Positions 187 to 29,250 of a stretch of 29,308 nt of DNA are shown here, piece after piece. The notes under the pieces are model-generated. The model was not told where the DNA came from. It made no database searches and saw nothing but the letters and a program-made list of their open reading frames with translations. How positions within the stretch are numbered: position 1 is the first letter of the stretch; every line of letters begins with the position of its first letter. Origin of the DNA: Baffinella frigidus (lineage: Eukaryota > Cryptophyceae > Cryptomonadales > Baffinellaceae); NCBI GenBank assembly GCA_026770585.1, contig MU646815.1:171257-200564 (forward strand). Direction: 5' to 3'. A program made the translations under genes and the position numbers.

Positions 187-232
187 CGCGAAGCCCGCCT
201 GGTAGACGTCAGCGCACGCGACGGTCACATGC
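187..232 (-). CDS. TRM61: TRM61 exon 8
   Basis: 46 nt. It encodes [15 protein letters not shown] after completing a split Arg codon (AG from exon 7 plus G). It matches the WVTVRTQDVCRSGFG block of family members. The acceptor is ataccag and the donor gtccga. The next exon lies off the window. Confidence 0.88.
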
Positions 233-3200
233 CTGGTATTTGGGGTTTAGGGTTCAGGGTTCAGGGTTTGGGGTTTGGGGTTTGGGGTTTTGGGGTTTGG
301 GGTTTAGGGTTTAGGGTTCAGGGGTTTGGGGTTTGGGGTTTGGGGTGTGGTGTTTGGGGTGTGGGGTTTGGTGTTGGGTGTTTCGGGGTTCGTGTTTCGT
401 GTTTCGTGTTTCGTGTTTCGGGTTCCGTGTTCCGTGTTTCGGGTTCCGGGTTTCGGGTTTCGGGTCCCGGGTTTCGTATTTCGTGTTTAGGTTAGGGGCC
501 GCGCGCCTCTGCATCCCGTGCCGTTTGACCTCCTCCTGGGCCTGCTCCACCCTCTGTCCCCCGACACCATGTTTCAGCGCCCGGCATGAAATATGGGGGT
601 GTATTTATGGGACGTGGCTGGTACTAATTGTGGACACGCCCGTACTAAATTGAGACGCGACACTTTTTGGACCAGGGCGAGAGACGCGCCCGGCCCACTC
701 GAGAATGCTATAGGGGGCCTATTTAAAACCGAACATATAAAGTCTTGACTACTCGAATGCTCAAATTTGTTCCAGGATAAGAGAAAAGTAACCACGCGCC
801 TGGTATAATTTTTACCGGGTAAGCGGTTACTTTACCTTATCCTGGTACACATATTCACAACTTTTTTTTCCTCTTGGGCCTGCTCCACCCTCTGTCCCCC
901 GACACACGTTTCAGGGATTCGGGTGTAGGGTTTTGGGGTGTGGGGGGTGGGTTTTGGGTTTTGGGGTGGGGGGGGTGTGGTATAGGGTTCCGGGTTTAAG
1001 AATTCTGGTTTCAGGTTTCGGGTTTCGGGTTTCGGTTTCGGGTTCCGGATTTTCGGGTTTCGGTTTCGGGTTTCAGGTTTCGGGTTCCGAATTTTCGGGT
1101 TTCGGTTTCGGGTTTTGGTTTCGGGTTCCAGGTTCCGGGTTCCGGGTTTCGGTTTCGGGTTTCAGGATCCGGCTTCCGGGTTTTCGGGTTCCGGCTGCGG
1201 GTGTCGGGATTCGAGTTTCGGACCGGGTTTCGGGTTTCGGGTTTCGGGTTTTGGGTTTCGGGTTTCGGGGTTCGGGGTTCGGGGTTCGGACCGGCTGGTG
1301 GAAGGCATAGGAAAGAGACGAGACCACGAGAGGTTCGGTGTTTGGTGTTTAGATTTGGCGCTTGGTGTTTGGTGTTTGATGTTTGGTGTTTTTGGTGTTG
1401 GGGGTGTCGGGGTTCGGACCGGCTGGTAAAGTCGAATGAAATAGACGAGAATATTTTTGCTAAATATACGTATATTGGACAAGTTAAGTAAAGCGCGTCA
1501 AACTTCGGAGTCGTATAGGGTTCGGACCGGCTGGTGGAAGTCGAATGAGTAGACGTGGCCGGTCGGCCCCACAAGACGCCCCATCGAGTGTGTCATCGAC
1601 CCTGACCCCGTCCCGCTCTCGATCCCAATCTGTTTCCGAGTTTCGGGTTTCGGGTTTCGGGTTTCGGGTTTCGGGTTTCGGGTTTCGGGTTTCGGGTTTC
1701 GGATTTCGGGTTTCGGGTTTCGGGTTTCGGGTTTGGAACCGGTTGGTGTTTCGGGCTTCGGGTCGCAAAGGGGGCCATTTCAAAAATGAAATGAAATTTA
1801 TAACGTGGTTGTATGATGTTGTACTGAGACCCCCCGGAAGTTTCGACAGGCCACGCCAGGTCATTTGTCAGAATTTTAGTTCGAAGTCGAAGTCTTTTTT
1901 AAAAAAATGTACCCGGATTCAAAAAAAATGTATTCGGAACGGACGTGAAAAGGACGAACCGTCGCATATGGCCGGATCAGTACGTACCATTTTGTCCCAC
2001 GAAACGAACCGTTGCGTCCTGAAATTCTGACAAATGACCGGCCGTGGTTTCTACGCGACAACCCCCAAACCCCTGAACCCCAACTTCTAAATCCCAAAAC
2101 CAACCAGGCTGCAGCCGAGCAGCGTGACATTTCTCACGGATTTCTCACGGCATGAACCGAACCCGGTTTGAGCCCGCTTTTCTAAAGCGGGGTAGAACCG
2201 TAGGGAAGTCTGGGTTGTACATCTCCTCGGTCCATCCACACGAAATCCCTTCGTAGCCCGATGTGTGGCTTGAATCATTAAAGCACGCCAAGGTGGACCC
2301 GGGCTGCGAAGGGATTTTCGGCCCGAATCGGGCCACCTTGCCGTTACCGTATCCGTAGGAACCCCCCTATGTCCCTACGGGATTGCCTGGGAAAGGGTGT
2401 AAGGATTATTCACTGGTGGGTTATTCACGAAATCCCTTCGTAGCCCGCTGTGTGTCATGCAAAAAGCGAACGCCAGCGAGGTACTTAGAGCCTACGGATT
2501 GCCTACGGTAGGAGCCCCCCTCCTACGACTTTTAAAGACCTTTTTGTTTTAAACGTCGTAGGAGGAGGGGGGGTTCCTACCGTAGGCTAAGGGGTCCGCT
2601 GGCCTTAGCTTTTCGCATTATGTGGACGGGAGCGTCGCATTCCACTAACCCTCGCCAGGTCATAAGTCGGATTTACTACGCCATCTACGGCTAAACTTTA
2701 CTACGCCATCTACGGCTAAAGTTGATTCTCGCCCGGAAAACACGCCAAAAGTGTTGGGAATTGGAGCTCTTTGCTGCCGCTAAAACGTTTTTGTGTACCA
2801 CGAAACACTTTTAGCGCGAAACGTTGCGTAAGAAATTCCCACTTACGACATGGCGTGGCCAACCCACACAGCGGGCTACGAAGGGATTTTCGGGCTCTGA
2901 GAGCCGGAGTTTCCGTTACCTTATCCGTAGGAACCCCGCTCTGCCCCTACGGGTTGCCTACCGTAGGGTCCTAGGTCTTATCGCTTAGGGGTTATTCGAA
3001 ATCCCTTCGAAGTCCGCTGTGTGGGGTGTGATTGGTGATTCATATCCCGCAGAAACGTGACCAGGCCCGCCCGTGACTGGCACAAATGTTTACAACCCCA
3101 CATGTAAAATACCCCACTTTCTGGCCTCAAGAGGTGGTAGGGCGTACCGATCCCGGTTTGAGCTGCATGCGGAGCAGGATCGCCTACCGTAGGGTCCTAG

Positions 3201-6200
3201 GTCTTATCGCTTAGAGGTTATTCGAAATCCCTTCGAAGTCCGCTGTGTGGGTACATATGTTGGGAGAAATCAAAACCCAAAGGACCTTGTTGGGGGTGGT
3301 AATTGGTTTAATTAGGATTCATAAGTAAAATTACCTATGCCATGGTAATTTCTCCTATGATTGGAGGCGGCAACGTACCGATCCCGGTTTGAGCTGCATG
3401 CGGAGAAGGATCGCTGAAATGTCGGGGTTGTAGATGATCTGCATTGTTTCGGTTTCGGGTTTCAGGTTTCGGGGTTCGGTTTCGGGTTTCAGGTTTCGGG
3501 TTCCGGGTTTCGGGGTCCGGGTTTCGGTTTCGGGTGATCGCTGAAATGTCGGGGTTGTAGATAATCTGCATTGAGGTTGCGGGGTTCGGTTTCGGGGTTC
3601 GGTTTCGGGTTCCGGGTTCCGGGTTCCGGGTTTCGGGTTCCGGGTTTCGGTTTCGGGTGATCGCCGAAATGTCGGGGTTGCAGACAATCTGGATTGAGGT
3701 TTCGGGTGTCAGGTTTCGGGGTTCGGTTTCGGGTTTCAGGTTTCGGTTTCGGGGTTCGGTTTCGGGTTTCAGGTTTCAGGTTTCGGTTTCGGGTTCCGGT
3801 TTCGGGTGATCGCCGAAATGTCGGGGTTGTAGATGATCTGCATTGAGGTTTGGGGTTTTCTATATTGAGATTTGGGGTTTGCGGATTGGGGTTGAGGGTT
3901 GAGGGTTGAGGGTTTGGGGTTTGGAGTTTTGGGGTTTGAGGTTTTGGGGTTTGAGGATTGGGGTTGAGGGTTGAGGGTTGAGGGTTTGGGGTTTGGGGTG
4001 TGGGGTTTGAGGTTTAGGGTTTGGGGTTTAGGGATGAGCGTTTAGGGATTGGGGAACAGGGTTTCGGGTTTAGGGTGTAGGGTTTAAGGTTTAGGGTTTA
4101 GGGTTTAAGGTTTAGGGTTTAGGGTTTGGGGTGTGAAGTTTGGGGGTTGTGAGTGAGGGATTCGGGTTCAGGGTTTAGGGTTTATAGTTTAAGGTTGAGG
4201 GTTAAGGGTTTAAAGAAGACGAAAGAAGAACGGTGCGGGAGCTTTCCACGCCAGTTCATTACTGGGAATTTCAGAACGCAACGTTTCATTTCGTGGTACT
4301 AAATGGTACGTAGCCACCATCGATTTCGCAGCTACTCGTCTTTTCCACGTCCGATCTGGATACAAAATTTCGGATCCGGGTACATTTTTAAAAAAAGACT
4401 TGTAGCTGGAATTCCGACTTACAACCTGGCGTGGCTACTGCAAACCCTTGGCTTGACCTGTCAATCTATTCCATTCAAAACGAATTTGGGTTTAAAAAGC
4501 AGTTTTTGGTACTAAAAAAAGATAAAAGCGTTTTTAAACGATAATTTGAGGGGAGTTTGAATTTCCCTAAGGCGGAAATTGGAGCCGTTTGCCACCGATT
4601 TCGTGCTAGGGGGGGCTGTGGAGTTTCAGTAGCCACCAAACCCCGATGTTAGCTTCCTCGATTTCCGCCTGGCAAGCTCCGAATTCGAGGCTAACGCCCC
4701 CGAAACCCGCCTGGAACCCACAAAGCCAGAACCACGGTCTGGTCAACTTCGGAGGGCTCGTGCGGGATGTCGCGACCTTGATAGCGAAAGGATCTGAAAT
4801 TAGATTTGTAAAGTGGCTCGTGTGACTTTTAGCCCCTCGAGTTTTATTATTTGTACCAGAACGAGCCACTTTACCAATCTAATTCCAGATCCTGGTACTA
4901 CCACGCAGGGCCCTTCGAGGGGTATTCCAGGGTCGTTCTTGGAGCCATTGCGTCGTTCTTGGAGCCGTTTTCTTCAAAAAATGACTTTTGGATGCCATTT
5001 TCCCTTAAAAATTGACTTTTGAATACCCCCCCAAGAGCCCTCCGTGGAACCTGCGAGCGGTGCGGAAGCGACTTCGAAATCACTAGCAAAGGATTTCGAC
5101 CCCCGTTTGAGGTCTCAAGTGGCGTCGCGTGGTGGCACTGTGAACCTGCGACCTAGGACCCTACGGTAGGCAATCCGTAGGAGCATAGGGGGGGTTCCTA
5201 CGGACAAGGTAACGGAAAGGTGGCCCGATTTGGGCCGAAAATCCCTTCGTAGCCCGCTGTGTGGGTGGAACCACTCGAGGCTAGAAATGTGACTATTTTA
5301 AAACAGAGCTTCTTTTACAAGTAAAAAAACAAGAGATGTGTAGTAATTTTCACACAGATAGGGGCGTTTGGTCACGTATCTGGGGGAATTCCCCCAGTAT
5401 CGTGACCAAGCCTGCCCGTGACTGGTACTAAATTCAACAACCCCACATTTAAAATACTCCCTCTTCCAGCCTCGAGTGGAACCTGCGTGCGGTGCGGCAG
5501 CGACTCCGTCCAGAGCTCCGGGCTCGGGCGCAGCACTCGGCCGCAGCTGTGTGGCCTGGTTCAGTTATCGCCCCGGCACAAACCCTGCCCGGGTTCAGTC
5601 AACCGTCTTACTGGGGAGCCTACGCGTCAACTTTTGGGGCGTCGCGTCAACTTTTGGGGCTTGATTTCGTCAACTTTTGGGGCTTAATTGGCAGGTACTG
5701 GGAGAGTCCCACACCCCCTGACCAACCCGGGCAGGGTCCGGAAACCCCTTCGTAGCCCGCTGTGTGGGCGGAACCTGCGTGCGGTGCGGAAGCGACTCCG
5801 TCCAGAGCTCCGGGCTCGGCCGCAGCACCATCACGAACCCTGCGTGGGATGTACGGTTTGGGGTGTGGGGTTTGGGGGTTGGGGTTGGATTTTGGGGGTT
5901 TGGGTTTGGGGTTTGGGGTTTGGGGTTTGGGGTTTGGGGTTGGGGGTTTGGGGTTTGGGGTTTAGGGTTTAGGATTGGGGTTGGATTTTGGGGTTAGGGG
6001 ATAGGGGATGGGGTTTGAAGTTTGGGTTTTGGGGGTTCAGGGTGTGTGGTTAATGGTTTATGGTTTATGGTGTGTTGTTTATGATTTATGGTTTATGGTT
6101 TATGGTTTATGGTCTATGGTTTTGGGGTCTAGGGACAAAGCTCAACACCTCAGGAGTTCAGGGTGTGTGGTGTACGGTTTATGGTTTCTGGTGTGTGGTT

Positions 6201-8760: not shown

Positions 8761-9130
8761 GCCACGATCGATTTCACGTGCTGGATAGATTCTCAGGTGA
8801 CGAGCCTCATCTTGACTTTCGGTCGCAGCTCGGGACAGCAACTGAGAGCGTGGATCCTCAGAGGGAGCGTGCAGCAGCATGGAGAACAAGGTGGCGGGCC
8901 CAGCCCCGAAATCCCGCGCCGAAATCCGGATTTCTTCCGCGCCCCGTGCAACCACCAACCCACCACCACTGAAACAAGATTAACCATAACTGTCACCACA
9001 TAGAGCGCAGGATGGGCATGGCGGCTGCCTGCTCGCACACGTGATCGCAGACCCCGAACCCCGTTCCATCACCCGCAACCCTGCTGCCCCCCCCCCCGCC
9101 GCCGCCGCAACCCCCTCACCGCCCATCCAG
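8761..9130. promoter_or_regulatory. candidate bidirectional promoter between TRM61 and aminopeptidase P
   Basis: The only DNA between the first exons of two head-to-head genes. It is nearly free of the heptamer arrays and foldbacks that fill the rest of the window, and it includes a C-run with CCGCCGCCGCC at 9086-9109. No TATA box is evident. The inference rests on gene layout alone. Confidence 0.5.
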
Positions 9131-9183
9131 ATGAGTGTAGCTGCAACCCCCCGCATCATCCGAGCCCTGCAACTCACAACCAG
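9131..9183 (+). other. possible N-terminal coding segment, frame-shifted relative to the next exon
   Basis: ATG at 9131 opens MSVAATPRIIRALQLTT, which resembles an aminopeptidase P N-terminus, but it is one frame off from the conserved block starting at 9184 and has no obvious donor. It could be a base-level error, an unrecognised tiny intron or chance. Confidence 0.3.
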
Positions 9184-9264
9184 GACAAGGTGGCGGCGGT
9201 GCGCGCCTGGCTGGCCAAGGAAGGCTTCGCGGCTCTGATCGTGGGGTCGGAGGACGCTCACCAG
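9184..9264 (+). CDS. XPNPEP1: aminopeptidase P exon A
   Basis: 81 nt: [15 protein letters not shown] then [12 protein letters not shown]. It matches the family start (AYIIPSGDAHQSEYI). The acceptor would be acaaccag. The donor is CAG|gccctc, a weak GC-type site, but the next exon must begin with Ser-Glu-Tyr in phase 0, which fixes the cut after CAG. If the real start codon lies in an earlier exon, it is not recognised. Confidence 0.85.
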
Positions 9265-23977: not shown

Positions 23978-24022
<45 letters not shown>

Positions 24023-27000
24023 ATATTTATATATATAATATGTATAAATATATATGTATATATACATATCTATATACATACATAATACAATCTGTCTGGC
24101 CCCGCAGGGATGTGCCCCACCCCCCCCCCTACCCATACGCCTTCTGGCTGCAGGCTCGGCAGGGTGACATCCACTTAGCAGCGGCCGAGTTCCTTTTCAC
24201 CTTGAATTCAAGGTGAAATTCCGGTTAGGTTCCAGGGCAAAGGATAATATTCTAGTACCAATCGTGTACATGGACTGTATGCGTGAAGCTCCCGGTGGCT
24301 GCTGAGTGGTAAGCGAGATGTTCGTAACCCCCGACACACTCAACAGAGGAGGTCTCGGCCAGACAGATCCTGTACTATGCAAAGCTAATAGGGTAACGGC
24401 CTGAAAATGGGGTAGTTAGGCCTACGGCAGTGCCTAGGACCTCCTACCGTAGGCCGAGATTTTTTGGTCCTAGGATCCCTCGGCCTACGGTAGGAGGTCC
24501 TATGCAATGCCGTATGCCTAACTACCCCATTTTCAGGCCGTGAGCCTATGAAAGCGAACTCCCCTATGTCCCTACGGATTGCCTACCGTAGGGTCCTAGG
24601 TCTGATCGCTGAGGGGTGTACAGCTGAGGCGATTGTTCACCCACGATTCCCAAAACAGAGGAGGTTTCGAAGTACCTCGCGGGTTGCGGCATCACTGTCC
24701 GGCCGTATCAGGCAAGAGGCCCCCTCCCTTGACCTGACCGTTCCAACGGCGACCACAGAACGAAACAAAATCAGACAAAACCAAAGCCTCAGAAAGCTTC
24801 AAGAAGCCTCCTCACATAGCGGGCTACCAAGGGATTTCCGGCCCAAATCGGGCCACCTTTCCGTTACCGTATCCGTAGGCCGTACCAGGCACGCACCCCA
24901 CCCCTCTCGACTCTTCTCGTTTTTTCTGCAACAATGATGAAGATTATTTGATGCCCATAAAACCGCGAAATCCTGGTTACACAGCTAGAGCGCTGTGCAG
25001 AGAATTTGGCCACCGGAAAATGGGAAAATGGGGAAATTGGAGCCATTTTGTCCACTTTTGAGAATTTCATGTTACTAAATTTCTCAAATGTTGACAGAAT
25101 GGCTCCAATTTCTCGATTTCCCATTATTTCCCGTGGCCAACTTCTCTGCACAGCGCTCTACGTTCCTTGCTTTTCCTGCTGCAAGACTTCCCGCACAGCG
25201 GACTTTCCGTTACCTTATCCGTAGGAACCCCCCTATGTCCCTACGGGTTGCCTACCGTAGGGTCCTATGGTCTTATCGTTTAGGGCTTATTCAATATCCC
25301 TTTGAGGGGATTTTTCAATAACCCCTGAGCGAGACCGCAGGTCCACACAGCAGACGTCGAAGGGATTTTGAATAACCCTTAAGCGATACGACCTACGACC
25401 CTACGGTAAGCAATCCGTAGGGACATGGGGGGGGTTCCTACGGATAAGGTAACGGAAACTCGGCCCGAAATGGGCCGAATGTCCCTTCGTAGCCCGCTGT
25501 GTGTAGGGTGTAGGGTGTAGGGTGTAGGGTGTAGGGTGTATGGTAGGGTGTAGGGTGTAGGGTGTATGGTAGGGTGTATGGTGTAGGGTTTAGGGTGTAG
25601 GGTGTGGGGTGTAGGGTGCAGGATTGTGTGGCTTTCGCGGCCCCTGGTTCAGTTACCGCCCCGGTACAGACCCTGACCCGGTTCAGTCAACCGTCTTACT
25701 GGGGAGTCTACGCGTCAACTTTTGGGGCGTCGCGTCAACTTTTGGGGGTTGATTTCGTCAACTTTTGGGACTTAATTTCGTCAACTTTGGGGCTCTTGTT
25801 CGCAGGCGATCGGCGAGGATCTCAAGGCTTTGGCGCTCGCCAAAACCCGGGTGACCCTCCTGAACCCCCTCGCTTTGCCTGGTACCACACGAGGCTACCT
25901 ATGCGAACAGAATAAATGTCGATTGTAAACGTGTGTAGTAATTTTCAGATGAAAAGCAGCGACTTTACACAGGTCCGACCGCTCAGCGGGCGGAAACGTA
26001 ATTATTTGCCCACACAACTTTAAAAGCCCGTTTTATTCTGTTCGCCTGGGTAGCCTCGTGTGGTACAGGGCTTTGGCTTTGGCGCCAAAGCCTTGAGATC
26101 CTCGCCTGCCGTACGGCCCTCTCCTCGCGAAAAGTCAAAAGCAAGACCTCGATTTCTCGGTGGTGCTCTCCCCATCTTACATATCCCCTTGATAGGTTCA
26201 AACCTAGGGGTGTCCCACACGAGGCTACCCAGGCGAACAGAATAAAACCCGGGGGCTGTATAAGTAGGCCTATCCATAAGTGATTTATAACCGACCGACC
26301 GCTGAGCGGTCGGTCACGTGATCATTTCCCTACAAAACTTTAAAAGTCCCTTTTGTTCTGTTCGCATGGGTAGCCTCGTGTGGTCTCCTGAACTCTAAAC
26401 GATATAGTACGAGTGCATGTTCCGTATATTCCATATAGTTAATCTTCCGTATATAGTGTATATTCGTATATTCCATATAGCGCATTCACCCACCAGCAAC
26501 CCGTTGCAGCTTATAACCGGGTCGGGTACTGTAGTAAATTTCAGTTAAACCGGACATATCTGTCCGTATCTCCCGTCAGCAATTCCGAGGCCCCTAGGAA
26601 ATCCTACCGCAGGGTCCTACGAATAACCCCCCCAAAAAAATGTTCCCGGATTCTTGCAAGGATCCGGTAATAGCTGTGCTACGGGTTACTTGTGGACCCT
26701 ATCCACACGGTGGGCTACGAGGGTTTCGTTGACCCTGGATTCCAGGGTGATACATGACCAACTTGCATAAAAAAAAACCGTCAAGTTAATTGTCTTCAGG
26801 CAAGTTGACTTTTGATGAAAGGCTCGTAGTCCACCGTGTGGAGGTTCTTTTAACTCCCACCATAGGCGGACAGTGGAACTGGTTCTGGTCAGGGTGGTTC
26901 TCCCGGGTTGAACGGAAGTGTCTGAGGCGAAATCGGCCACTCTGTAAGGCCAAATGACCATCCTCAGATAGCGAGGGGGCAAATGGATCGGGTATTTATT

Positions 27001-29250
27001 GGATTCAGTGCCCATATGGGCACTGAATCCCCCACAACCACACGAGGCTACCTATGCGAATAGAATAAATGTCGATTGTAAACGTGTGCAGTAATTTTCA
27101 GATGAAAAGCAGCGACTTTACACAAGTCGCGCCGCTCAGCGGCGCGACACGTGACCATTTCCCCCCACAAAACCCTAAAACTCCCTTTTATTCTGTTCGA
27201 ATAGGTAGCCTCGTGTGGAAGTTGGACATGACTCGTACTATTTTTTGAATTTGTACCCGAATTAAAAAGATCCGTTTGCCCCCTCGCTATCCGAGCAAGG
27301 TTAGGGTTTGGGGTGCAGGTTAGGGTTCATGGATTGGGGGTTAGGTTAGGGTTTAGGGTATAGGGTATAAGGTTTGGGGTTTAGGGTTTCAGGTTCATGG
27401 CTTAGGGTGTAGGGTTCAGGGTGTAGGGTGTAGGGTGTAGGGTGTAGGGTGTAGGGTGTAGGGTGTAGGGTGTAGTAGGGTGTAAAGTGTAGGGTGTAGG
27501 GTGTAGGGTGTAGGGTGTAGCGTACCTCCTGGGGGTCTGTCCGACCGCGGACCCTTTCTGGTGGTGACCCAAGTTGTTTTCCAACAGGGCACACCGTGTT
27601 TTTCAATGGTGGCAACTTTTGACAAATGTGGCCACATTGGTTTTTCCATGTTGACGATGCCGATAGCTAAACCACTCGAGGCTGGAAATGTGACTATTTC
27701 AAAACAGGGATTCTTTTACAAGTGAAGAAAAAAAAGTAGGTGTAGTAATGTTCACACAAATAGGGGCGTTTGGTCACGTATCTGACAGAAATATGTCAGA
27801 TACGTGACCAAGCCTGCCCGTGACTGGTACTAAATTGAACAACCCCGCATTTAAAATACTCCCTCTTCCAGCCTCGAGTGGAACGGCGTCTCTAAACCCA
27901 AAACCCCGAAACCTTCTAAACCCTAAACCCCTAAACCCTGACCCCCTAAACTTCTAAACCCTAAACCCCTATACTCCTCGAAACCCTGAACCCCTAAACT
28001 TCTAAACCCTAAACCCTAAACTCTGAACCCTAATGAAAGGTGATAGTGGATCCATCGGCCGTGGCCCAGGACAAAGGTGGCCACTTTTGACAAAGATGGC
28101 CACATTGGTTTGATCGTGGCTACATTTTTTTTTCAAAACGTGGCAAAAGTTGACGATACCGACAGCTGAGACGAAGGCGTCTGACAGGAGATCCCGTTGA
28201 TCTCGTCTATTTCCCTCAAGTGGCCAGTAGGCGCATACGCCCTACCGTAGGGCCCTAGGACCTGCCTAGGACCTCTTCGTGGTCAATTTTGACCGGCTGG
28301 CCACTTAAGGGATAGTCTATCGAACCCTCTAAACCCCAACCCCTGGAAGGTGATGGTGGACCCGGCCACTCGAGGCTAGAAATGGGACCATTTCAAAACA
28401 GGGATTCTTTTACAAGTGAAGAAAAAACAAGATATGTGTAGTAAATTTCACACAAATAGGGGCGTTTGGTCACGTATCTGGGGTCACGTATCTGGGGTTG
28501 ACCCCAGATACGTGACCAAATCCGCCCGTGACTGGTACTAAATTTAACAACCCCACATTTAAAATACTCCCTCTTTCAGCCTCGAGTGGGGACCCGGCGC
28601 GGTGCTCCTGGGCCGGGCCGCCCAGGATAAATGTGGCCACTTTTGACGAATGTGGCCTCTTTTGTTCGAACCCCTACCACACGGTGGCCTACGGACCCTT
28701 CATCTAACGTCAACTTGCCTGAAGACAATTAAGTTTACGAATTTTTTTAGTTAGGGTCCTGATTAAGCTTCGTCCAACTCCTATGAGCACATAGGGACCC
28801 TAAAACCAAAACCCAAATGGAAGGTGATGGTGGACCCGGCGCGCTGCTCCTGTCAGGACAAATGTGGCCACTTTTGACGATAACTGTGGCCACATTTGTT
28901 CGAACCCCTACCACACGGTGGACTACGAACCTTTCATCAAAAGTCAACCTGCCTTGATGCAATGAAATTTCAGGATTTTCTGGCGCAGTTTGTCCATATA
29001 GTCTGTCGAACCTCTCAACCCCAACCCCTGCAAGGTGATGGTGGACCCTGCGTGCTGCTCCTGCCAGGACAAACGTGGCCACTTTTGACAAATGTGGCCA
29101 GTCGCAAATGTGGCCAGTCAGGGCCCTTAACCTTGGTCCAACTCCTCTGAGCACATAGGGACCCTGAAGCCCAACCCCCAATGGTAGGTGATGGTGGACC
29201 CGGCGCGCTGCTCCTGGGCCGTGGCCCAGACTCTCACAGACCCCCATGAG
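9184..29250 (+). CDS. XPNPEP1: Xaa-Pro aminopeptidase (aminopeptidase P), partial gene of 13 exons
   Basis: Span of a plus-strand gene; the exons are listed separately. Aminopeptidase P removes the N-terminal residue from peptides with proline in second position. The cytosolic eukaryotic form has two creatinase-like N-terminal domains and a C-terminal metal-binding M24 pita-bread domain. The visible 858 nt (286 codons) are colinear with the family: [156 protein letters not shown]. Eleven of twelve introns are phase 0. The metal ligands and catalytic domain lie beyond 29308. The first codons are unresolved. Function is inferred from the family. Confidence 0.93.
9276..9406. mobile_element. foldback element with CCCTCTGACGTCAA arms
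   Basis: GCCCTCTGACGTCAA pairs with TTGACGTCAGAGGGGGC. About 130 bp, starting 11 bp after exon A. Non-coding. Confidence 0.8.
9624..9791. mobile_element. CCACCAACCCT foldback element, copy 2
   Basis: CCACCAGCCCTCACGGTTTG at the left pairs with AAACCGTGAGGGTTGGTGG at the right, flanked by AT on both sides. The long arms include GGGCAAAT; the centre differs from copy 1. Confidence 0.93.
9808..9979. mobile_element. TAGAGCGTTTGCGG foldback element, copy 1
   Basis: Ends TAGAGCGTTTCCGGTAATTG and CAATTACCGCAAACGCTCTA. The inner arms are CCGGTTTTCCGG repeats; the centre is TGTCCATTTAAAATGTTTTA. TA at each end suggests mariner-like TA insertion. Related copies are at 11934, 22983 and 23497. Confidence 0.92.
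10048..10167. mobile_element. GGCTCAAATAGTG foldback element, copy 1 (damaged)
   Basis: GTGGCTCAAATAGTGCTCTGG pairs with CCAGAGCTCTATTTGAGCC. The right end GGCTAGTGG is kept; the left CCACTAGCC end is lost. The intact copy is at 20701-20841. Confidence 0.85.
10220..10345. repeat. short tandem repeat with CCTTACCGCATGGGAGCAG units
   Basis: Four to five imperfect units containing TTACCGCATGGGA with spacing of roughly 25-45 bp, between the damaged foldback and the telomere-like array of intron A. Confidence 0.8.
10420..10605. repeat. CCCTAAA telomere-type array around exon B
   Basis: CCCTAAA/CCCTGAA units occupy both sides of exon B (10473-10511). The donor of exon B is the first base of the array (gtaaaccctaaa). 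Orientation is C-rich on the sense strand. Confidence 0.95.
10473..10511 (+). CDS. XPNPEP1: aminopeptidase P exon B (39 nt)
   Basis: Thirteen codons, [13 protein letters not shown], colinear with SEYIAPCDCRRAF of the family. The acceptor is accctatacag and the donor gtaaac. Phase 0 on both sides. The exon lies inside a telomere-type array. Confidence 0.92.
10606..11028. other. intron B sequence, partly inverted repeat
   Basis: GTCGAAATGGG..GAATCGAGGTCAGGTCAG (10760-10800) pairs loosely with CTGACCTGACCTCGATT..CCCATTTCGAC (10917-10960), giving a foldback of about 200 bp. No exon recognised. Confidence 0.65.
11029..11174. mobile_element. TGCACTGCCAGG foldback element, copy 1
   Basis: CACTGCCAGGCCGGAG..TTTTGTAAAAGTCAA pairs with TTGACTTATACAAAAACTCCGCCCTGGCAGTG. 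A second copy is nested at 17029-17175, and a partial one lies near 18636-18690. Confidence 0.85.
11330..11575. repeat. inverted repeat whose arms enclose exon C
   Basis: GCCTTATCCACACAAGATCT..GACTTAAGG at the left pairs with CTTAAGTC..AGATCTGGTGTGGATAAGGC at the right. Inner arms GATGTCAAAAGTGGA (11389-11403) and TCCACTTTTGACATG (11480-11494) also pair. The right inner arm starts at the donor of exon C. Confidence 0.85.
11431..11478 (+). CDS. XPNPEP1: aminopeptidase P exon C
   Basis: Sixteen codons, [16 protein letters not shown], matching VSGFDGSAGTAIITEE of domain I. The acceptor is gtgggcag and the donor gtccac. Phase 0. The exon sits in the loop of a 246-bp inverted repeat, so the pre-mRNA could fold around it. 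Confidence 0.94.
11568..11756 (+). pseudogene. two copies of the 3' edge of exon C
   Basis: At 11731-11756, CAGTAGATCTAGTGGTCTCA with GCGAAG and donor gtgcg is a diverged TAVISAK end. At 11568-11576 only TCAGCGAAG plus gtgc remains. Both are downstream of the intact exon. Confidence 0.6.
11934..12110. mobile_element. TAGAGCGTTTGCGG foldback element, copy 2
   Basis: Complete, 177 bp, ends TAGAGCGTTTGCGGTAATTG/CAATTACCGCAAACGCTCTA. It interrupts a minisatellite whose other units read GTATTTGTTAAGGG(A/T)GTA with GCGCCGACC following. The empty unit has one TA, confirming TA target duplication. Confidence 0.93.
12181..12285. mobile_element. TATCCCTTAAGTGGC foldback element, copy 1
   Basis: TATCCCTTAAGTGGC at the left and CACTCAAGGGATA at the right, with GGTCAAATTTGACC and CCTAGGCAGGTCCTAGG inside. 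Other copies are at 20372-20475 and 28208-28314. Confidence 0.85.
12410..13060. repeat. CCCTAAA telomere-like array around exon D
   Basis: CCCTAAA with CCCCAAA, CCCTAAC and CACCCCA variants on both sides of exon D, C-rich on the sense strand. No other gene content. Confidence 0.95.
12546..12584 (+). CDS. XPNPEP1: aminopeptidase P exon D (39 nt)
   Basis: Thirteen codons, [22 protein letters not shown] is a hallmark of the first creatinase-like domain of aminopeptidase P. The acceptor is ctaaactgcag and the donor gtctcc. Phase 0. Confidence 0.95.
13123..13152 (+). pseudogene. degenerate copy of the 3' part of exon E
   Basis: Reads [10 protein letters not shown] followed by donor gtcccg; the intact exon reads [10 protein letters not shown]. 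It lies upstream of the intact exon, an exception to the polarity rule. Replacement of the conserved Trp argues that it is not used. Confidence 0.88.
13288..13450. mobile_element. CCACACAGCGGGCTACGAAGG foldback element, near-complete
   Basis: Starts CCACACAGCGGGCTACGAAG and ends GGAGTCCGCTGTGTGG, with GCCTACCGTAGGGTCGTAGG inside. 163 bp. Confidence 0.9.
13490..13534 (+). CDS. XPNPEP1: aminopeptidase P exon E
   Basis: Fifteen codons, [15 protein letters not shown], aligned with AAKQMDSNWTLMKM. The acceptor is ccctcaacag and the donor gtaacc. Both flanking introns begin or end in CCCTAAA repeats. Confidence 0.92.
13759..13803. other. assembly gap of 45 N
   Basis: Run of undetermined bases inside the CCCCAAA array between exons E and F. 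Its true length is unknown. Confidence 0.99.
13905..13964 (+). CDS. XPNPEP1: aminopeptidase P exon F
   Basis: Twenty codons, [20 protein letters not shown], corresponding to TPTQEDWLVSVLPEGSR at the end of domain I. The acceptor is gaaacccaag and the donor gtctgg. The loop before VPRQ is about four residues shorter than usual, so a micro-exon could be hidden in the gapped intron. Confidence 0.85.
14061..14094 (+). pseudogene. copy of the 3' part of exon F
   Basis: Repeats [10 protein letters not shown] with an extra C before the AAG|gtcgtg donor, which breaks the frame. The intervening 13965-14060 holds repeated CGTGTGTCCAA..CACCC..GGTAGTGAAC units, also duplicated downstream to 14150. Confidence 0.88.
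14171..14305. mobile_element. CCACTTAGCAGC-type foldback element, copy 1
   Basis: Left end TCACTGGCGACCGAGGACC, right end GGTGGCTGCTAAGTGG. The interior TGAAATTCCGGTTAGGTT and ATTCTAGTAC is shared with 24171-24309. Confidence 0.75.
14350..14514. mobile_element. foldback element, TTCATCCCGTCAGGTATTTG arms
   Basis: Near-perfect 50-bp arms: TTCATCCCGTCAGGTATTTG pairs with CAAATACCTGACGGGATGAA, and CGAAATTTACTACACG pairs with CGTGCAGTAAATTTTG. Non-coding. Confidence 0.92.
14515..14800. repeat. CCACGAATCCAACAATT dispersed short repeat
   Basis: Motif GTACCACGCATCCAACAA and variants recur at 14521-14560, 14715-14790, 14960-15000 and 15475-15550. Between them a hairpin (14565-14710) contains GAAAATTACTACACA and TGTAGTAACTTTC. 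Confidence 0.85.
14801..14960. mobile_element. TAGGGTAACGGCC foldback element, copy 1
   Basis: 160 bp, nearly all paired. It contains CCTCCTACCGTAGGCCGAG and TCGGCCTGCGGTAGGAGG around GGTCCTAGGATCC. Copy 2 is at 24389-24548. TA lies at each end. Confidence 0.95.
15045..15435. mobile_element. composite inverted repeat with AGCCATGCTTCC arms
   Basis: AGCCATGCTTCCTTTCGGAT at 15045 pairs with 15341-15376, and GGGGGGCCTGAATGTGATCC occurs twice. An internal CTACCGTAGGGTCCTGGG hairpin lies at 15220-15300. The right end (GTGGGAGTTAAAAGAACC) recurs inverted at 26845. Confidence 0.8.
15458..15473 (+). pseudogene. copy of the 5' edge of exon G
   Basis: tcccag followed by GTGGCGGTAGATGCGT, identical to the start of exon G, then the CCAACAATTCG repeat. 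It lies upstream of the intact exon. Confidence 0.88.
15621..15767 (+). CDS. XPNPEP1: aminopeptidase P exon G, largest exon
   Basis: 147 nt, 49 codons: [49 protein letters not shown]. It covers the start of domain II (VGVDPLIIP and GHHLIPVKENLVDKIWTDRP in the family). The acceptor is acttccag; the donor gtgagt is the strongest in the gene. At least six fragments of this exon lie in the two neighbouring introns. Confidence 0.96.
15816..15968. mobile_element. foldback element, GAAGCGTCCAGCCCTGA arms
   Basis: GAAGCGTCCAGCCCTGA pairs with TCAGGGCTGGACGCTTC, and CGGATCAAATCGCCTCTAC pairs with GTAGAGGCGATTTGATCCG. Its right end lies directly before a copied exon G edge. Confidence 0.92.
15980..16012 (+). 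pseudogene. exon G 3'-edge copy 1
   Basis: TGGACGGACCAGTCTTCCCC and on to CGAAA with donor gtgagc: a diverged [11 protein letters not shown]. Confidence 0.88.
16106..16367 (+). pseudogene. exon G 3'-half copy 2, split by a foldback element
   Basis: Left piece 16106-16140 reads [11 protein letters not shown]; right piece 16333-16367 reads [11 protein letters not shown] with donor gtgagc. Between them sits the hairpin at 16152-16325. It is therefore an exon copy interrupted after duplication. A 24-bp end of the CCACACAGCGGGC element abuts its left side. Confidence 0.9.
16152..16325. mobile_element. near-perfect hairpin, CGAAACTTCGAACTTTGAGG arms
   Basis: Two arms of about 82 bp around GACTAATTTGGTTTTTAGTC, nearly identical. 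It contains CCTACCGTAGGAAGTAG. The arms have hardly diverged, so it is recent or is kept uniform by gene conversion. Confidence 0.95.
16490..16740 (+). pseudogene. further exon G fragments
   Basis: 16549-16582 copies [11 protein letters not shown] (with AAG to CAG); 16653-16671 copies WTDQPS; 16686-16740 copies [18 protein letters not shown] with donor gtgagc. The first is preceded by a double CCACACAGCGGGCTACG end (16496-16546), like the fragment at 16106, showing duplication of the whole junction. Confidence 0.85.
16850..16935. mobile_element. right end of a TAGAGCG element with CGGTTCAGATCCCTATTA units
   Basis: Three CGGTTCAGATCCCTATTA units and the terminus GTAAACGCTCTA. It matches the left end seen at 23497, which carries the same 22-bp tandem repeats. 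Confidence 0.75.
16961..17243. mobile_element. CCACTTAGCAGG element containing a nested element
   Basis: Ends CCACTTAGCAGGCAC and GTGCCTGCTAAGTGG; inner arms CGGGAAACGGTCCA and GGGGCGAAACGGTCCA are arranged as remnants. The TGCACTGCCAGG element at 17029-17175 is nested inside. Confidence 0.8.
17029..17175. mobile_element. TGCACTGCCAGG foldback element, copy 2 (nested)
   Basis: TTGCACTGCCAGGGCGGAG pairs with CCGGCCTGGCAATGCA. It shares AACGAGGTACC, AAGTTGACA and CACAAAATTTG-type blocks with 11029-11174. Confidence 0.88.
17244..17419. mobile_element. TAGAGCGCTGTGCAGAG foldback element, copy 1
   Basis: Ends TAGAGCGCTGTGCAGAGAAG and CTTCTCTGCACAGCGCTCTA, with AATTGGAGCCATTTTGTC inner arms. It directly abuts the preceding element. 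Copy 2 is at 24986-25160. Confidence 0.95.
17502..17705. repeat. AACCATAAACCATA / CCCTAAA array
   Basis: ACCATAA heptamers pass into CCCTAAA and CCCCAAA immediately before the exon H acceptor. C-rich on the sense strand. Confidence 0.92.
17711..17752 (+). CDS. XPNPEP1: aminopeptidase P exon H
   Basis: Fourteen codons, [14 protein letters not shown], matching the PVFVHPLKYAG-type linker before the second helix of domain II. The acceptor is ccttgaacag and the donor gtgtgc. Phase 0. Several edge copies follow. Confidence 0.85.
18095..18180. repeat. 86-bp segment shared in inverted form with 23112-23195
   Basis: TTAACAGAGGTTCCACTTTT, GCTTTGAGACGTTCCACTCT and CGGTGGGCCGC recur on the other strand inside the foldback element at 22983-23247. 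Confidence 0.85.
18285..18440. mobile_element. AACAAGCCACTTTTGGCGTG foldback element, copy 1
   Basis: CAGGAAAACAAGCCACTT pairs with AAGTGGCTTGTTTTC, followed by CTTTAGAAAACAGTATTTT and TATCGATTGCGGAGATAAAC. Copies are at 18893-19046 and, inverted, at 21133-21270. Confidence 0.92.
18499..18561 (+). mobile_element. tandemly repeated end of the CCACACGAGGCTACC element
   Basis: CCACACGAGGCT, then three units of AGGCTACCTATGCGAACAG, then directly the exon H copy at 18562. Only the left terminus of the element family is present, repeated in tandem. Confidence 0.9.
18617..18760. other. mosaic intron H sequence
   Basis: Short TTTAGGG run, a fragment of the TGCACTGCCAGG element (CAACTTAGAAACGAGGTACC), and another GGAGCCCCACTCTAACTAG with GGCCCCAGTTTTGGACC unit. 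No exon. Confidence 0.75.
18893..19046. mobile_element. AACAAGCCACTTTTGGCGTG foldback element, copy 2
   Basis: Shares the full structure and the 3' tail TTGCGGAGATAAACTCGTGC with copy 1, slightly truncated in the second arm. Confidence 0.92.
19065..19200. repeat. TTTAGGG/TTTACGG array, G-rich on the sense strand
   Basis: TTTACGG and TTTAGGG heptamers. This is one of the arrays in the aminopeptidase gene with reversed polarity relative to 10.4-17.7 kb. Confidence 0.92.
19300..19428. repeat. CACACACGCTTCGTGAC minisatellite, block 1
   Basis: Units of about 20 bp with core ACACACGC(T/C)TCGTGAC. Block 2 (19719-19855) lies on the other side of the first exon I copy. Confidence 0.9.
19429..19638. 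mobile_element. CCACTCGAGGCT foldback element, copy 3 (reversed)
   Basis: Complete, flanked by TG on both sides. The related unfilled junction at 19846-19867 reads ACACATGCGACTCC, so a 2-bp duplication is supported. It inserted about 17 bp before an exon I copy. Confidence 0.94.
19656..19718 (+). pseudogene. copy of the 5' two thirds of exon I
   Basis: aaaacag followed by [20 protein letters not shown] and S, then broken off into the CACACACG minisatellite. No donor. It is upstream of the intact exon. Confidence 0.94.
19719..19855. repeat. CACACACGCCTCGTGACAT minisatellite, block 2
   Basis: About seven degenerate 20-bp units, ending just before the exon I acceptor. Minus-strand ORFs of Cys-His-Val composition here are artefacts. 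Confidence 0.92.
19868..19942 (+). CDS. XPNPEP1: aminopeptidase P exon I
   Basis: Twenty-five codons: [20 protein letters not shown] then SSLDD. It aligns with DKVADLRLKMAERNVMWFVVTALDE. Of four copies in this region only this one has both an acceptor (ccaaacag) and a good donor (gtcagt), and it joins exon J in phase 0 to make SLDD|IAWLL. Confidence 0.94.
20090..20131 (+). pseudogene. copy of the 3' half of exon I
   Basis: [14 protein letters not shown] followed by gtctcc. The amino acid sequence is unchanged. Downstream of the intact exon. Confidence 0.93.
20323..20350 (+). pseudogene. second copy of the 3' edge of exon I
   Basis: GLVVSSLDD with GATGAC instead of GACGAC, followed by atccgt, so the donor is lost. 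Confidence 0.9.
20372..20475. mobile_element. TATCCCTTAAGTGGC foldback element, copy 2
   Basis: TATCCCTTAAGTGGCG and CGCCACTTAAGAGATA. The interior is GGCAGGTCCTAGGGCCCTAC with CGTAGGGCG. Confidence 0.93.
20701..20841. mobile_element. CCACTAGCC / GGCTCAAATAGTG foldback element, complete
   Basis: Ends CCACTAGCCA and TGGCTAGTGG, flanked by GA on both sides. The long inner arms are built on TTACCTTGGATCGGGGTC. 141 bp. Confidence 0.94.
20951..21090. mobile_element. TTATCCGGGGAAACCT foldback element, copy 2
   Basis: Better preserved than 7051-7190: arms of about 60 bp including TTTCATTTGATGGCAACG and AAAATTACTACACAA. Confidence 0.95.
21133..21270. mobile_element. AACAAGCCACTTTTGGCGTG foldback element, copy 3 (inverted)
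   Basis: Begins TTTATCTCCGCAATCGATAT, which is the tail of copies 1 and 2 on the other strand, followed by both arms. Confidence 0.94.
21430..21545. mobile_element. GGGCTCTT...AATACCCC foldback element, copy 2
   Basis: Shares GGGGTATTCCAGG, GCGTTCTTGGAGCCGTTT and TTGACTTTTGAAATACCCC with 4908-5041. The flanking 21300-21429 is AT-rich and has nothing recognised. Confidence 0.85.
21631..21745 (+). pseudogene. degenerate copy 1 of exon J 5' part
   Basis: ccag followed by IAWLRNIHA and a stop; after about 36 bp of unrelated sequence the text resumes [10 protein letters not shown]. Inactivated by the stop. Confidence 0.88.
21750..22120. repeat. CAGATCTGACGAGAT minisatellite
   Basis: Imperfect 15-16-bp units with CGAGAT(C/T)(T/C) core, on both sides of exon J copy 2. 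It ends at the acceptor of the intact exon J. Confidence 0.92.
21921..21983 (+). pseudogene. copy 2 of exon J 5' half
   Basis: cctcag followed by [19 protein letters not shown] then PY and an immediate TGA. Nearly identical to the intact exon, so its acceptor may still compete. Confidence 0.94.
22128..22248 (+). CDS. XPNPEP1: aminopeptidase P exon J
   Basis: 121 nt: [40 protein letters not shown] plus G. It is strongly conserved with [24 protein letters not shown] of domain II. The acceptor is gcacctcag and the donor gtgatt; phase 1, completed by AG of exon K to Glu. It is the third and only complete copy. Confidence 0.96.
22253..22400. repeat. imperfect foldback after exon J
   Basis: GGTCGGGTCGGGCGGAAAT pairs loosely with AATTTGCCCACCCGACCC. 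It begins at the exon J donor. Confidence 0.6.
22748..22894. mobile_element. foldback element, GCGGGACGACTCAATTTAAA arms
   Basis: GCGGGACGACTCAATTTAAACCG pairs with CGGTTTAAATTGAGTCGTCCCGC, and TTTTGCTATCTT pairs with AAGATAGCATAA. TTTTGCTATCTTATGGGTC units recur at 23310-23432. Confidence 0.93.
22983..23247. mobile_element. TAGAGCGTTTGCGG foldback element, copy 3 with insert
   Basis: Left end TACAGCGTTTGCGGTAATTG, right end CAATTACCGCAAACGCTCTA. The centre carries an extra segment (23112-23195) shared with intron H. Confidence 0.9.
23310..23432. repeat. 21-bp tandem repeat, TTTTGCTATCTTATGGGTC
   Basis: Five to six nearly identical units without spacers. The unit derives from the interior of the hairpin at 22748-22894. 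Confidence 0.95.
23497..23764. repeat. TAGAGCG element end with alternating 22-bp tandem repeat
   Basis: Starts TAGAGCGTTTGCGGTAATTG, then ten CGG(T/G)TCAGATCCCTATTA-type units. From unit 4 they alternate CGGTTC and CGGGTC, a 44-bp higher-order dimer. Confidence 0.93.
23978..24093. repeat. AT/GT microsatellite
   Basis: (TA)n, then (TG)n, then TA-rich, in intron J. Tyr-Ile and Thr-His ORFs across it are artefacts. Confidence 0.97.
24171..24309. mobile_element. CCACTTAGCAGC foldback element, copy 2
   Basis: CCACTTAGCAGC at the left and GGCTGCTGAGTGG at the right, with CACCTTGAATTCAAGGTG palindrome and TGAAATTCCGGTTAGGTT inside. Confidence 0.85.
24347..24360 (+). pseudogene. exon K 5'-edge copy 2
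   Basis: actcaacag followed by AGGAGGTCTCGGCC, a diverged exon start, upstream of the intact exon. Confidence 0.75.
24389..24548. mobile_element. TAGGGTAACGGCC foldback element, copy 2
   Basis: 160 bp, about 95 percent alike to 14801-14960 by eye. Near-perfect hairpin with CCTACCGTAGG cores, flanked by TA at each end. Confidence 0.96.
24555..24880. mobile_element. fragments of the CCACACAGCGGGC element around exon K
   Basis: 24555-24620 (CCTATGTCCCTACGGATTGC and GTCTGATCGCTGAGGGGT) lies just before exon K. 24812-24880 (CACATAGCGGGCTACCAAGG ... TATCCGTAGG) lies after it. Exon K thus appears embedded between element halves. Confidence 0.8.
24659..24711 (+). CDS. XPNPEP1: aminopeptidase P exon K
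   Basis: 53 nt: completes Glu with the G of exon J and then encodes [17 protein letters not shown], matching VAEHL...GVEVRPY of the family. The acceptor is cccaaaacag. The donor is GC type, CAG|gcaaga, close to the GC-AG consensus. Phase 0 into exon L. Confidence 0.93.
24986..25160. mobile_element. TAGAGCGCTGTGCAGAG foldback element, copy 2
   Basis: Ends TAGAGCGCTGTGCAGAGAAT and CTTCTCTGCACAGCGCTCTA. The interior is the same as 17244-17419. Confidence 0.95.
25190..25503. mobile_element. two head-to-head CCACACAGCGGGC elements
   Basis: 25190-25320 runs forward (TTTCCGTTACCTTATCCG ... TTATTCAATATCCCTTT). 25341-25503 runs in reverse (CCACACAGCAGACGTCGAAG ... TAGCCCGCTGTGTG). Each has GCCTACCGTAGGGTC or its complement. 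Confidence 0.9.
25500..25620. repeat. GGGTGTA heptamer array
   Basis: TAGGGTG units with occasional TATGG, G-rich on the sense strand of the aminopeptidase gene. Confidence 0.95.
25644..25805 (+). repeat. dispersed CGTCAACTTTTGGGG repeat, copy 2, ending at a splice acceptor
   Basis: Same sequence as 5556-5694 (GGTTCAGTTACCGCCCCGG, CAACCGTCTTACTGGGGAG, CGTCAACTTTTGGGG units). Its last bases cttgttcgcag are the acceptor of exon L. Confidence 0.92.
25806..25850 (+). CDS. XPNPEP1: aminopeptidase P exon L
   Basis: Fifteen codons, [15 protein letters not shown], corresponding to SILSELKALCADLSPREK. The acceptor is ttgttcgcag and the donor gtgacc. Phase 0. A partial inverted copy lies at 26075-26107. 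Confidence 0.92.
25885..26063. mobile_element. CCACACGAGGCTACC foldback element, copy 1
   Basis: CCACACGAGGCTACCTATGC and GGGTAGCCTCGTGTGG, flanked by TA on both sides. The interior has GTGTAGTAATTTTCAGATG and ACCGCTCAGCGG. Confidence 0.95.
26075..26107 (-). pseudogene. inverted partial copy of exon L
   Basis: Minus strand reads ggcag followed by GCGAGGATCTCAAGGCTTTG and GCGCCAAAG; GCGATCGGCGAGGATCTC.. is the intact start. This is the only exon copy I see in reverse orientation. It starts 11 bp after a foldback element. Confidence 0.82.
26215..26383. mobile_element. CCACACGAGGCTACC foldback element, copy 2
   Basis: CCACACGAGGCTACCCAGGC and GGGTAGCCTCGTGTGG, flanked by TC on both sides. The centre is CCGACCGCTGAGCGGTCGG. 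Confidence 0.95.
26384..26700. other. intron L sequence, no gene seen
   Basis: Contains TTCCATATAG/TTCCGTATAT direct repeats (26420-26480), a GTAGTAAATTTCAG motif and a broken CCTACCGCAGGGTCCTACG block. No exon recognised. Confidence 0.65.
26703..26841. mobile_element. CCACACGGTGGGCTACGAGGG foldback element, copy 2
   Basis: CCACACGGTGGGCTACGAGG and GTAGTCCACCGTGTGG, with GACCCTGGATTCCAGGGT hairpin and AAGTTGACTTTTGATGAAAG inside. Confidence 0.95.
26965..27294. mobile_element. foldback element GATAGCGAGGGGGCAAA, interrupted by a nested element
   Basis: GATAGCGAGGGGGCAAATGG at the left pairs with CCGTTTGCCCCCTCGCTATC at the right. The CCACACGAGGCTACC element at 27038-27218 sits inside. Left-hand sequence 26845-26940 matches the inverted right end of 15045-15435. 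Confidence 0.88.
27038..27218. mobile_element. CCACACGAGGCTACC foldback element, copy 3 (nested)
   Basis: Flanked by AA on both sides. The interior is almost the same as copy 1, with a CGCCGCTCAGCGGCG centre. Confidence 0.95.
27299..27520. repeat. TTTAGGG and GGGTGTA array
   Basis: Degenerate TTTAGGG (27299-27400), then nearly pure TAGGGTG (27410-27520), G-rich on the sense strand. The opposite-strand Tyr-Thr-Leu-His-Pro ORFs are artefacts. Confidence 0.95.
27672..27881. mobile_element. CCACTCGAGGCT foldback element, copy 4
   Basis: Complete 210 bp, flanked by AA on both sides. The centre is TATCTGACAGAAATATGTCAG. Confidence 0.96.
27890..28035. repeat. CCCTAAA/TTCTAAA array
   Basis: CCCTAAA and CTTCTAAAC units, C-rich on the sense strand, directly before the first exon M copy. 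Confidence 0.93.
28040..28072 (+). pseudogene. exon M copy 1
   Basis: gaaag followed by [11 protein letters not shown]: the start and AVAQ parts of the exon with the RCSW codons deleted. Confidence 0.88.
28208..28314. mobile_element. TATCCCTTAAGTGGC foldback element, copy 3 (inverted)
   Basis: TTTCCCTCAAGTGGCC and GGCCACTTAAGGGATA. The interior matches 12181-12285 on the other strand (GGTCAATTTTGACC). Confidence 0.93.
28350..28616 (+). pseudogene. exon M copy 2, split by a CCACTCGAGGCT element
   Basis: VMVDP at 28350-28365, then the element, then GGACCCGGCGCGGTGCTCCT resuming DPARCSW at 28590-28616. The element duplicated GGACCCGG. Confidence 0.94.
28366..28589. mobile_element. CCACTCGAGGCT foldback element, copy 5
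   Basis: 224 bp, with an internal duplication of GGTCACGTATCTGGGG. The 8-bp sequence GGACCCGG occurs on both sides, and sister exon M copies have it once. The other copies of this family show 2-bp duplications. Confidence 0.96.
28620..28820. other. intron L sequence with repeated GTGGCCACTTTTGAC motif
   Basis: Block AAATGTGGCCACTTTTGACG followed by half of a CCACACGGTGGGC element and CCAACTCCT..GAGCACATAGG. The same order recurs at 28855-29000 and 29070-29165, so exon M copies travel with this block. Confidence 0.85.
28824..28852 (+). pseudogene. exon M copy 3
   Basis: gaag followed by VMVDPARCS then TCAGGACAAATGTGG. 5' part only. Confidence 0.93.
29035..29063 (+). pseudogene. exon M copy 4
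   Basis: gcaag followed by VMVDPACCS then CCAGGACAAACGTGG. 5' part only. Confidence 0.93.
29188..29250 (+). CDS. XPNPEP1: aminopeptidase P exon M
   Basis: Twenty-one codons: [17 protein letters not shown] then DPHE. It aligns with VWVSDKASYAVSETI of domain II and follows KTR of exon L in phase 0. The acceptor is aatggtag and the donor gtacta. It is the last and only complete copy after four truncated ones. The rest of the gene continues beyond the window. Confidence 0.93.

Follow-up and report, generated by a model that had tools for sequence, protein, structure and literature searches.

The window analysed here, a stretch of 29.3 kb, is the terminal part of its contig in a 382-Mb eukaryotic assembly. 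It carries two genes in divergent orientation: one, on the minus strand, is TRM61-like, and the other, on the plus strand, encodes an Xaa-Pro aminopeptidase. Introns of both contain broken pieces of the exons next to them. The locus raises the question of how such pieces arise, why they lie where they do relative to the intact exon and why complete copies are missing.

Gene models and transcript support

The boundaries of the 21 exons in the window, 8 in the TRM61-like gene (T1 to T8) and 13 in the aminopeptidase gene (A to M), were set by hand, and the spliced frames of both genes are open. The TRM61-like gene was located by tblastn with human TRMT61A, and its 8 exons join into a single open frame. 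The 13 aminopeptidase exons encode 286 aa, and 286 of 286 residues are identical within P0196, a transcript-derived 630-aa protein with entries from MMETSP, where it is a transcript ORF, and from JGI. This match shows that the intact aminopeptidase exons are spliced and that the broken copies are not part of P0196. On another contig, the CCT1 protein P0076 (MMETSP) is rebuilt over 552/552 residues from 18 exons by an aligner that permits only GT or GC to AG introns; among the matches listed, its best species-named match is Hemiselmis tepida (80%), which points to a cryptophyte as the source of the genome. The half-exon pieces are absent from both transcript-derived proteins compared (P0196 and P0076). 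GC donors, read by eye, follow exons A (9264), K (24711) and T7 (513); among the 17 introns of CCT1, one has a donor of this type. A 45-base N run at 13759-13803 is an assembly gap inside a simple repeat.

The features of the two genes are as follows, with the evidence, or the match to the exon, in brackets.

TRM61-like gene
187..232, minus, exon T8, intact (frame)
513..553, minus, exon T7, intact, GC donor (frame)
869..899, minus, 5'-edge copy of T7, upstream (96.8%)
1284..1304, minus, 3'-edge copy of T6, downstream (100%)
1412..1447, minus, 3'-edge copy of T6, downstream (89%)
1528..1629, minus, exon T6, intact (tblastn and frame)
3143..3183, minus, 3'-edge copy of T5, downstream (97.6%)
3379..3438, minus, exon T5, intact (tblastn and frame)
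3536..3573, minus, 5'-edge copy of T5, upstream (97.4%)
3659..3696, minus, 5'-edge copy of T5, upstream (86.8%)
3808..3845, minus, 5'-edge copy of T5, upstream (97.4%)
5046..5076, minus, 3'-edge copy of T4, downstream (93.5%)
5478..5536, minus, 3'-edge copy of T4, downstream (96.6%)
5775..5839, minus, exon T4, intact (tblastn and frame)
6745..6779, minus, exon T3, intact (frame)
7981..8000, plus, inverted piece of T3 (95%)
8411..8487, minus, exon T2, intact (frame)
8650..8761, minus, exon T1, putative start (frame)

Aminopeptidase gene
9184..9264, plus, exon A, GC donor (P0196)
10473..10511, plus, exon B (P0196)
11431..11478, plus, exon C (P0196)
12546..12584, plus, exon D (P0196)
13123..13154, plus, 3'-edge copy of E, upstream, exception (81%)
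13490..13534, plus, exon E (P0196)
13905..13964, plus, exon F (P0196)
14061..14097, plus, 3'-edge copy of F, intron flank duplicated too (alignment)
15454..15474, plus, 5'-edge copy of G, upstream (100%)
15621..15767, plus, exon G (P0196)
15980..16017, plus, 3'-edge copy of G (89%)
16101..16145, plus, piece of G (71-115), first half of a hairpin-split copy (87%; split by eye)
16333..16372, plus, 3'-edge piece of G (113-152), second half of the hairpin-split copy (90%)
16542..16582, plus, piece of G (70-110) (93%)
16686..16745, plus, 3'-edge copy of G (88%)
17711..17752, plus, exon H (P0196)
17882..17907, plus, 3'-edge copy of H (100%)
18243..18263, plus, 5'-edge copy of H, downstream, exception (100%)
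18562..18590, plus, 3'-edge copy of H (96.6%)
19650..19718, plus, 5'-edge copy of I, upstream (95.7%)
19868..19942, plus, exon I (P0196)
20078..20134, plus, 3'-edge copy of I (94.7%)
20325..20357, plus, 3'-edge copy of I (90.9%)
21628..21656, plus, 5'-edge copy of J (86%)
21696..21737, plus, piece of J (23-65) (86%)
21913..21985, plus, 5'-edge copy of J, intron flank duplicated too (94.5%)
22128..22248, plus, exon J (P0196)
23285..23305, plus, 5'-edge copy of K (100%)
24659..24711, plus, exon K, GC donor (P0196)
25806..25850, plus, exon L (P0196)
26082..26106, minus, inverted piece of L, 25 nt, exception (100%)
28344..28366, plus, 5'-edge copy of M, first half, hairpin-split (95.7%; split by eye)
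28590..28625, plus, copy of M, second half of the hairpin-split copy (88.9%)
28816..28852, plus, 5'-edge copy of M, intron flank duplicated too (97%)
29033..29063, plus, 5'-edge copy of M (93.5%)
29188..29250, plus, exon M (P0196)

Partial exon copies in the window

All exons were searched by one procedure (blastn, E ≤ 1e-3, at most 4 kb away, at least 11 nt of exon). Copies are found for 14 of the 21 exons, 12 with direct copies and two (L and T3) with inverted copies only, where a reading of the sequence alone (hereafter the sequence-only reading) had counted at least 11. If the same TRM61 numbering is assumed, the exons it had named are recovered save for two whose copies are too short, exon 3 of TRM61 (17 nt, E 0.012) and exon C of the aminopeptidase (18 nt, E 0.056). 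It had also claimed a polarity, with 5'-edge pieces upstream and 3'-edge pieces downstream of the intact exon, and this holds for 25 of 27 direct edge copies (14 of 16 when counted by exon edge). The two direct edge copies on the wrong side belong to E (a 3' piece upstream) and H (a 5' piece downstream); these and the inverted piece of L (25 nt, 100%) are the exceptions listed before, and all three are real. At the threshold used, the pieces of L and T3 are the only two inverted pieces in the window, and a weaker inverted 3' piece of exon M is seen at 27522-27540 (E 0.002).

The statement that such copies fill the introns is too strong. Aligned exon pieces total about 1.2 kb (summed alignment lengths), a small fraction of the introns, and the remainder is made up of hairpins and other repeats, arrays of simple sequence and sequence without an assigned class, a weak division into classes given a comparison set that is mostly N, with about 36 kb of real letters.

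Copies in five further genes

The same search covers 37 exons of five further genes, 35 of them in CCT1, CCT4, CCT6 and CCT3 and two in locus L020, which presumably encodes a glutaminyl-peptide cyclotransferase-like protein. The CCT exons were located with human proteins, and their ends are approximate. This set is independent of the earlier finding and not wholly blind, as 10 chaperonin exons and one L020 copy had been seen before. Copies, none of them inverted, accompany 16 of the 37 exons, and every one of the 23 edge copies falls on the predicted side (p = 2.4e-7; 17/17 by exon edge). With exact exon ends, CCT1 gives 6/6 direct edge copies on that side. The proposal that two unrelated genes reflect a wider habit is thus borne out in each of the five further genes (2 to 17 exons each), and the edge-copy pattern spans seven genes on five contigs, including that of the window. 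An inverted copy of the first CCT1 exon lies 2.3 kb upstream of it (G000:C94:453129-453216, 91.6% over 83 nt).

Pooled over 58 exons of the seven genes, there are 58 direct and 2 inverted copies. Counted per exon edge, the predicted side holds 31 of 33, and the internal pieces (8/8) lie on the side of the exon half from which they derive. The direct copies have a median identity of 91.4% (range 74.5-100) and a median distance of 217 bp, and they include 13-65 nt of exon (median 30). None of the 48 predicted-side direct edge pieces exceeds 65 nt of exon, also where the exon itself is 100-228 nt long.

Misjoined haplotypes or reads could place such pieces beside an exon, and the N run in the window does indicate gaps in the assembly. 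However, the copies have diverged from their exons to the extent given above, some are cut by hairpin elements (by eye) and the same polarity is found on five contigs; an assembly artefact is extremely improbable. The splice site itself is mostly preserved, with AG or GT retained in 28 of the 31 edge copies whose alignment spans it, as would be expected of functional decoy sites maintained by selection. Young copies would show the same, though, and only copies that align across the site enter the count. The copies also occur in unrelated housekeeping genes and vary in number and identity, and we regard decoy function as very unlikely.

As a gauge of chance matches, the 58 exons were compared with the other loci, which supply about 83 kb of real letters in addition to the window; they give 4 matches, all between chaperonin paralogue loci. 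Exons thus match their own locus or chaperonin paralogues, which upholds, for the sequence compared, the earlier statement that introners do not explain the copies. Within this sequence, where the same unit is not found at many unrelated introns, we reject a derivation of the exon pieces from introners or another dispersed source.

Extent of the proposed duplicated units

If an exon piece came with its neighboring intron, homology should continue past the exon edge. In 27 of 48 pairs, the adjoining intronic sequence outscores all mismatched controls, and in 21 it does not. Rank alone would give 1 or 2 of 48 (an estimate based on how many controls there are), and simple-sequence arrays shared along the locus may account for some of the 27 high scores. 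Among 13 pairs picked for display, the duplicated intron is plain in several. Units with an intron part are found at exons F and J, at C6:8877-9005 and at L020:6204-6275, and the aligned columns number 98 at exon F, 206 at exon J and 74 in C6. Three of the 13 (exon I, exon T4 and C39:2243) have little or no intron homology past the edge, and in two (C94:11643 and C1202:6577) the intron part is of low complexity. Judged by the nearest copies, the units would measure 80 to 355 bp, with two longer ones (593 and 1369) and a median of 193; decay has obscured the intronic breakpoints. The sequence-only reading had invoked repeated tandem duplication. A side and orientation seen nearly without exception support it, and the flanks do so in 27 of 48 pairs.

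The pieces could instead be long target-site duplications, if a mobile hairpin element or filler DNA enters a staggered break across an exon edge and fill-in duplicates 20-65 bp of that edge beyond the insert. The exon pieces are indeed short (median 30, maximum 65 nt) and near the edge, the contiguous intron homology adjoining the edge is often short (median 8 nt), and some pieces abut hairpin elements, such as both T4 copies and intact T4. Against this, the flank exceeds all controls in the 27 pairs, some duplicated-intron units are visible, and the sole cleanly readable element insertion in a copy, that of exon M, carries an 8-bp repeat only (by eye). We find this explanation quite unlikely. 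A transposable element with a target-site duplication of constant length is rejected, as the pieces vary from 13 to 65 nt and the hairpins are separate and cut some copies (by eye).

No full-length copy, that is, an extra exon with both splice sites, was found by blastn within 4 kb for any of the 58 exons. If units of the size above were placed uniformly, the fraction of visible events with a whole-exon copy would be 0.54, and under this simple placement model the chance of zero full copies over 31 independent events is about 3.5e-11. The exonic breakpoints also crowd toward the exon edge more than a uniform distribution would (31 edges, mean percentile 0.30, p = 5e-5). This edge bias is the main weakness of the simple model, and it implies either selection against long half-exons too or biased duplication.

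Exons compared with intron segments

Length-matched, non-satellite intron segments (300) serve as a control. Direct copies within 4 kb are found for 28 of 58 exons and 96 of 300 segments. As many as 63 of these 96 segments have inverted copies as well, a mark of mobile repeats, and 33 have direct copies only; inverted copies are found for 2 of the 58 exons. Within 400 bp, the counts are 26/58 for exons and 44/300 for segments. In CCT1, copies accompany 6 of 17 exons and 0 of 37 control segments.

The greater frequency of direct copies in exons, the CCT1 contrast and breakpoints near the edges may also be read as duplication targeted to exon edges, for example by transcription, R-loops or chromatin, and thus non-random along the gene. 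The excess is nevertheless partly expected, because slow change of exons keeps old duplications recognizable, while copies of intron by intron would decay on both sides. Some local duplications in the window also involve intron only (for example 10219-10342 and 11498-11669). Edge targeting as the explanation is unlikely.

Hairpin elements and other repeats

The window introns are rich in hairpin and dispersed repeats, some of which cut exon copies. By eye, a hairpin lies between the exon G pieces 71-115 and 113-152, and a CCACTCGAGG...CCTCGAGTGG element that has an 8-bp repeat interrupts a copy of exon M. The hairpin is a passenger in the split G and M copies, because the element arrived after the duplication. 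The T4 copies merely abut an element, and either order of arrival may apply there.

A MITE-like hairpin family with ends CCACTCGAGGCT and AGCCTCGAGTGG (by eye) is found at 27672-27881, 28366-28589 and 19429-19638. A second repeat family with the end CACACAGCGGGCTACGAAGGG occurs at 2242-2268, 2430-2454, 5239-5263, 13286-13309 and 16080-16103, and is also matched in other pieces of this genome. Long arrays of 7-bp units (TTTAGGG or GGGTTTC type) lie in introns at 239-465, 985-1289, 3865-4212, 12594-13042 and elsewhere, with related arrays on many contigs.

Proposed model for the origin of half-exons

The half-exons are probably leftovers of frequent local tandem duplication with one breakpoint inside the exon. 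A unit of roughly 80 to 350 bp, with one end in the intron and the other in the exon, would be duplicated head to tail, perhaps by replication slippage, template switching or break repair. The exon would stay whole, a front piece with its acceptor would be left upstream or a back piece with its donor downstream, and the intron on the duplicated side would lengthen by the length of the unit. Subsequent events could then extend the pieces into arrays, cut them by hairpin elements and mutate them.

The polarity had been attributed earlier to selection keeping one intact copy. Such selection is not needed for it, since tandem duplication with one exonic breakpoint always leaves the exon intact. 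Selection would be required for the lack of full-length copies, because complete extra exons would presumably be spliced in. Copies with both splice sites would be purged and a half-exon with one site ignored, as exon definition predicts. Half-exon duplication may in this way contribute to intron growth genome-wide. A stronger version, which we hold only tentatively, is that introns grow mainly by constant edge-copying tandem duplication and that the two-site need of the spliceosome decides the survivors, so that half-exons accumulate and whole exons are purged. A bias of duplication targeted to exon edges may add to that process, and may also contribute to the exon excess over intron segments.

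Because exons change slowly, they mark local duplications here that could not otherwise be traced, and their one-sided copies provide a direct assay of duplication within introns. The missing full-length copies amount to a natural experiment on exon recognition outside animals and plants. If the stronger version holds, past duplication events can be read from an intron, and half-exons put exon definition to a natural test in a protist. Gene predictors that rely on exon homology may call half-exons as exons.

Comparison with known systems

To our knowledge, non-transposon routes of intron lengthening are poorly documented. Among the open-access papers listed, a set that leaves most subscription journals outside and gives no proof of absence, we recognized no prior report of one-sided half-exon copies. 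Whole-exon tandem duplication also places duplicated exon material beside the exon; here, in contrast, no full-length copy is found for 58 exons.

Tandem duplication is described as a route to new introns in the available part of PMC3443670. Intron gain by tandem genomic duplication, as given there and in the accessible text on the potato RdRp case (PMC4974935), is alike in its short exon-involving tandem duplication and exon-derived intronic sequence; it differs in that the unit here spans an existing splice site and that there are many events per gene. Where the intron flank is co-duplicated (27/48), an existing intron grows and none is created, and intron birth by AGGT duplication is rejected for those 27 of 48 pairs. 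Introner elements, in the portions available of PMC9860276 and of the Amoebophrya study PMC7789003, likewise load introns with inverted-repeat hairpin elements, whereas the copied material here is local exon, not found at unrelated loci among the approximately 83 kb compared. In the same portion of PMC7789003, direct repeats at the exon-intron boundaries of Amoebophrya are 3-5 nt long, compared with 13-65 nt of exon here. Intron gain by double-strand break repair in Daphnia, to the extent that it is described in the available part of PMC3443670, also leaves direct repeats around intronic sequence, but here as much as 65 nt of exon is part of the repeat, and the repeats lie to one side of the exon.
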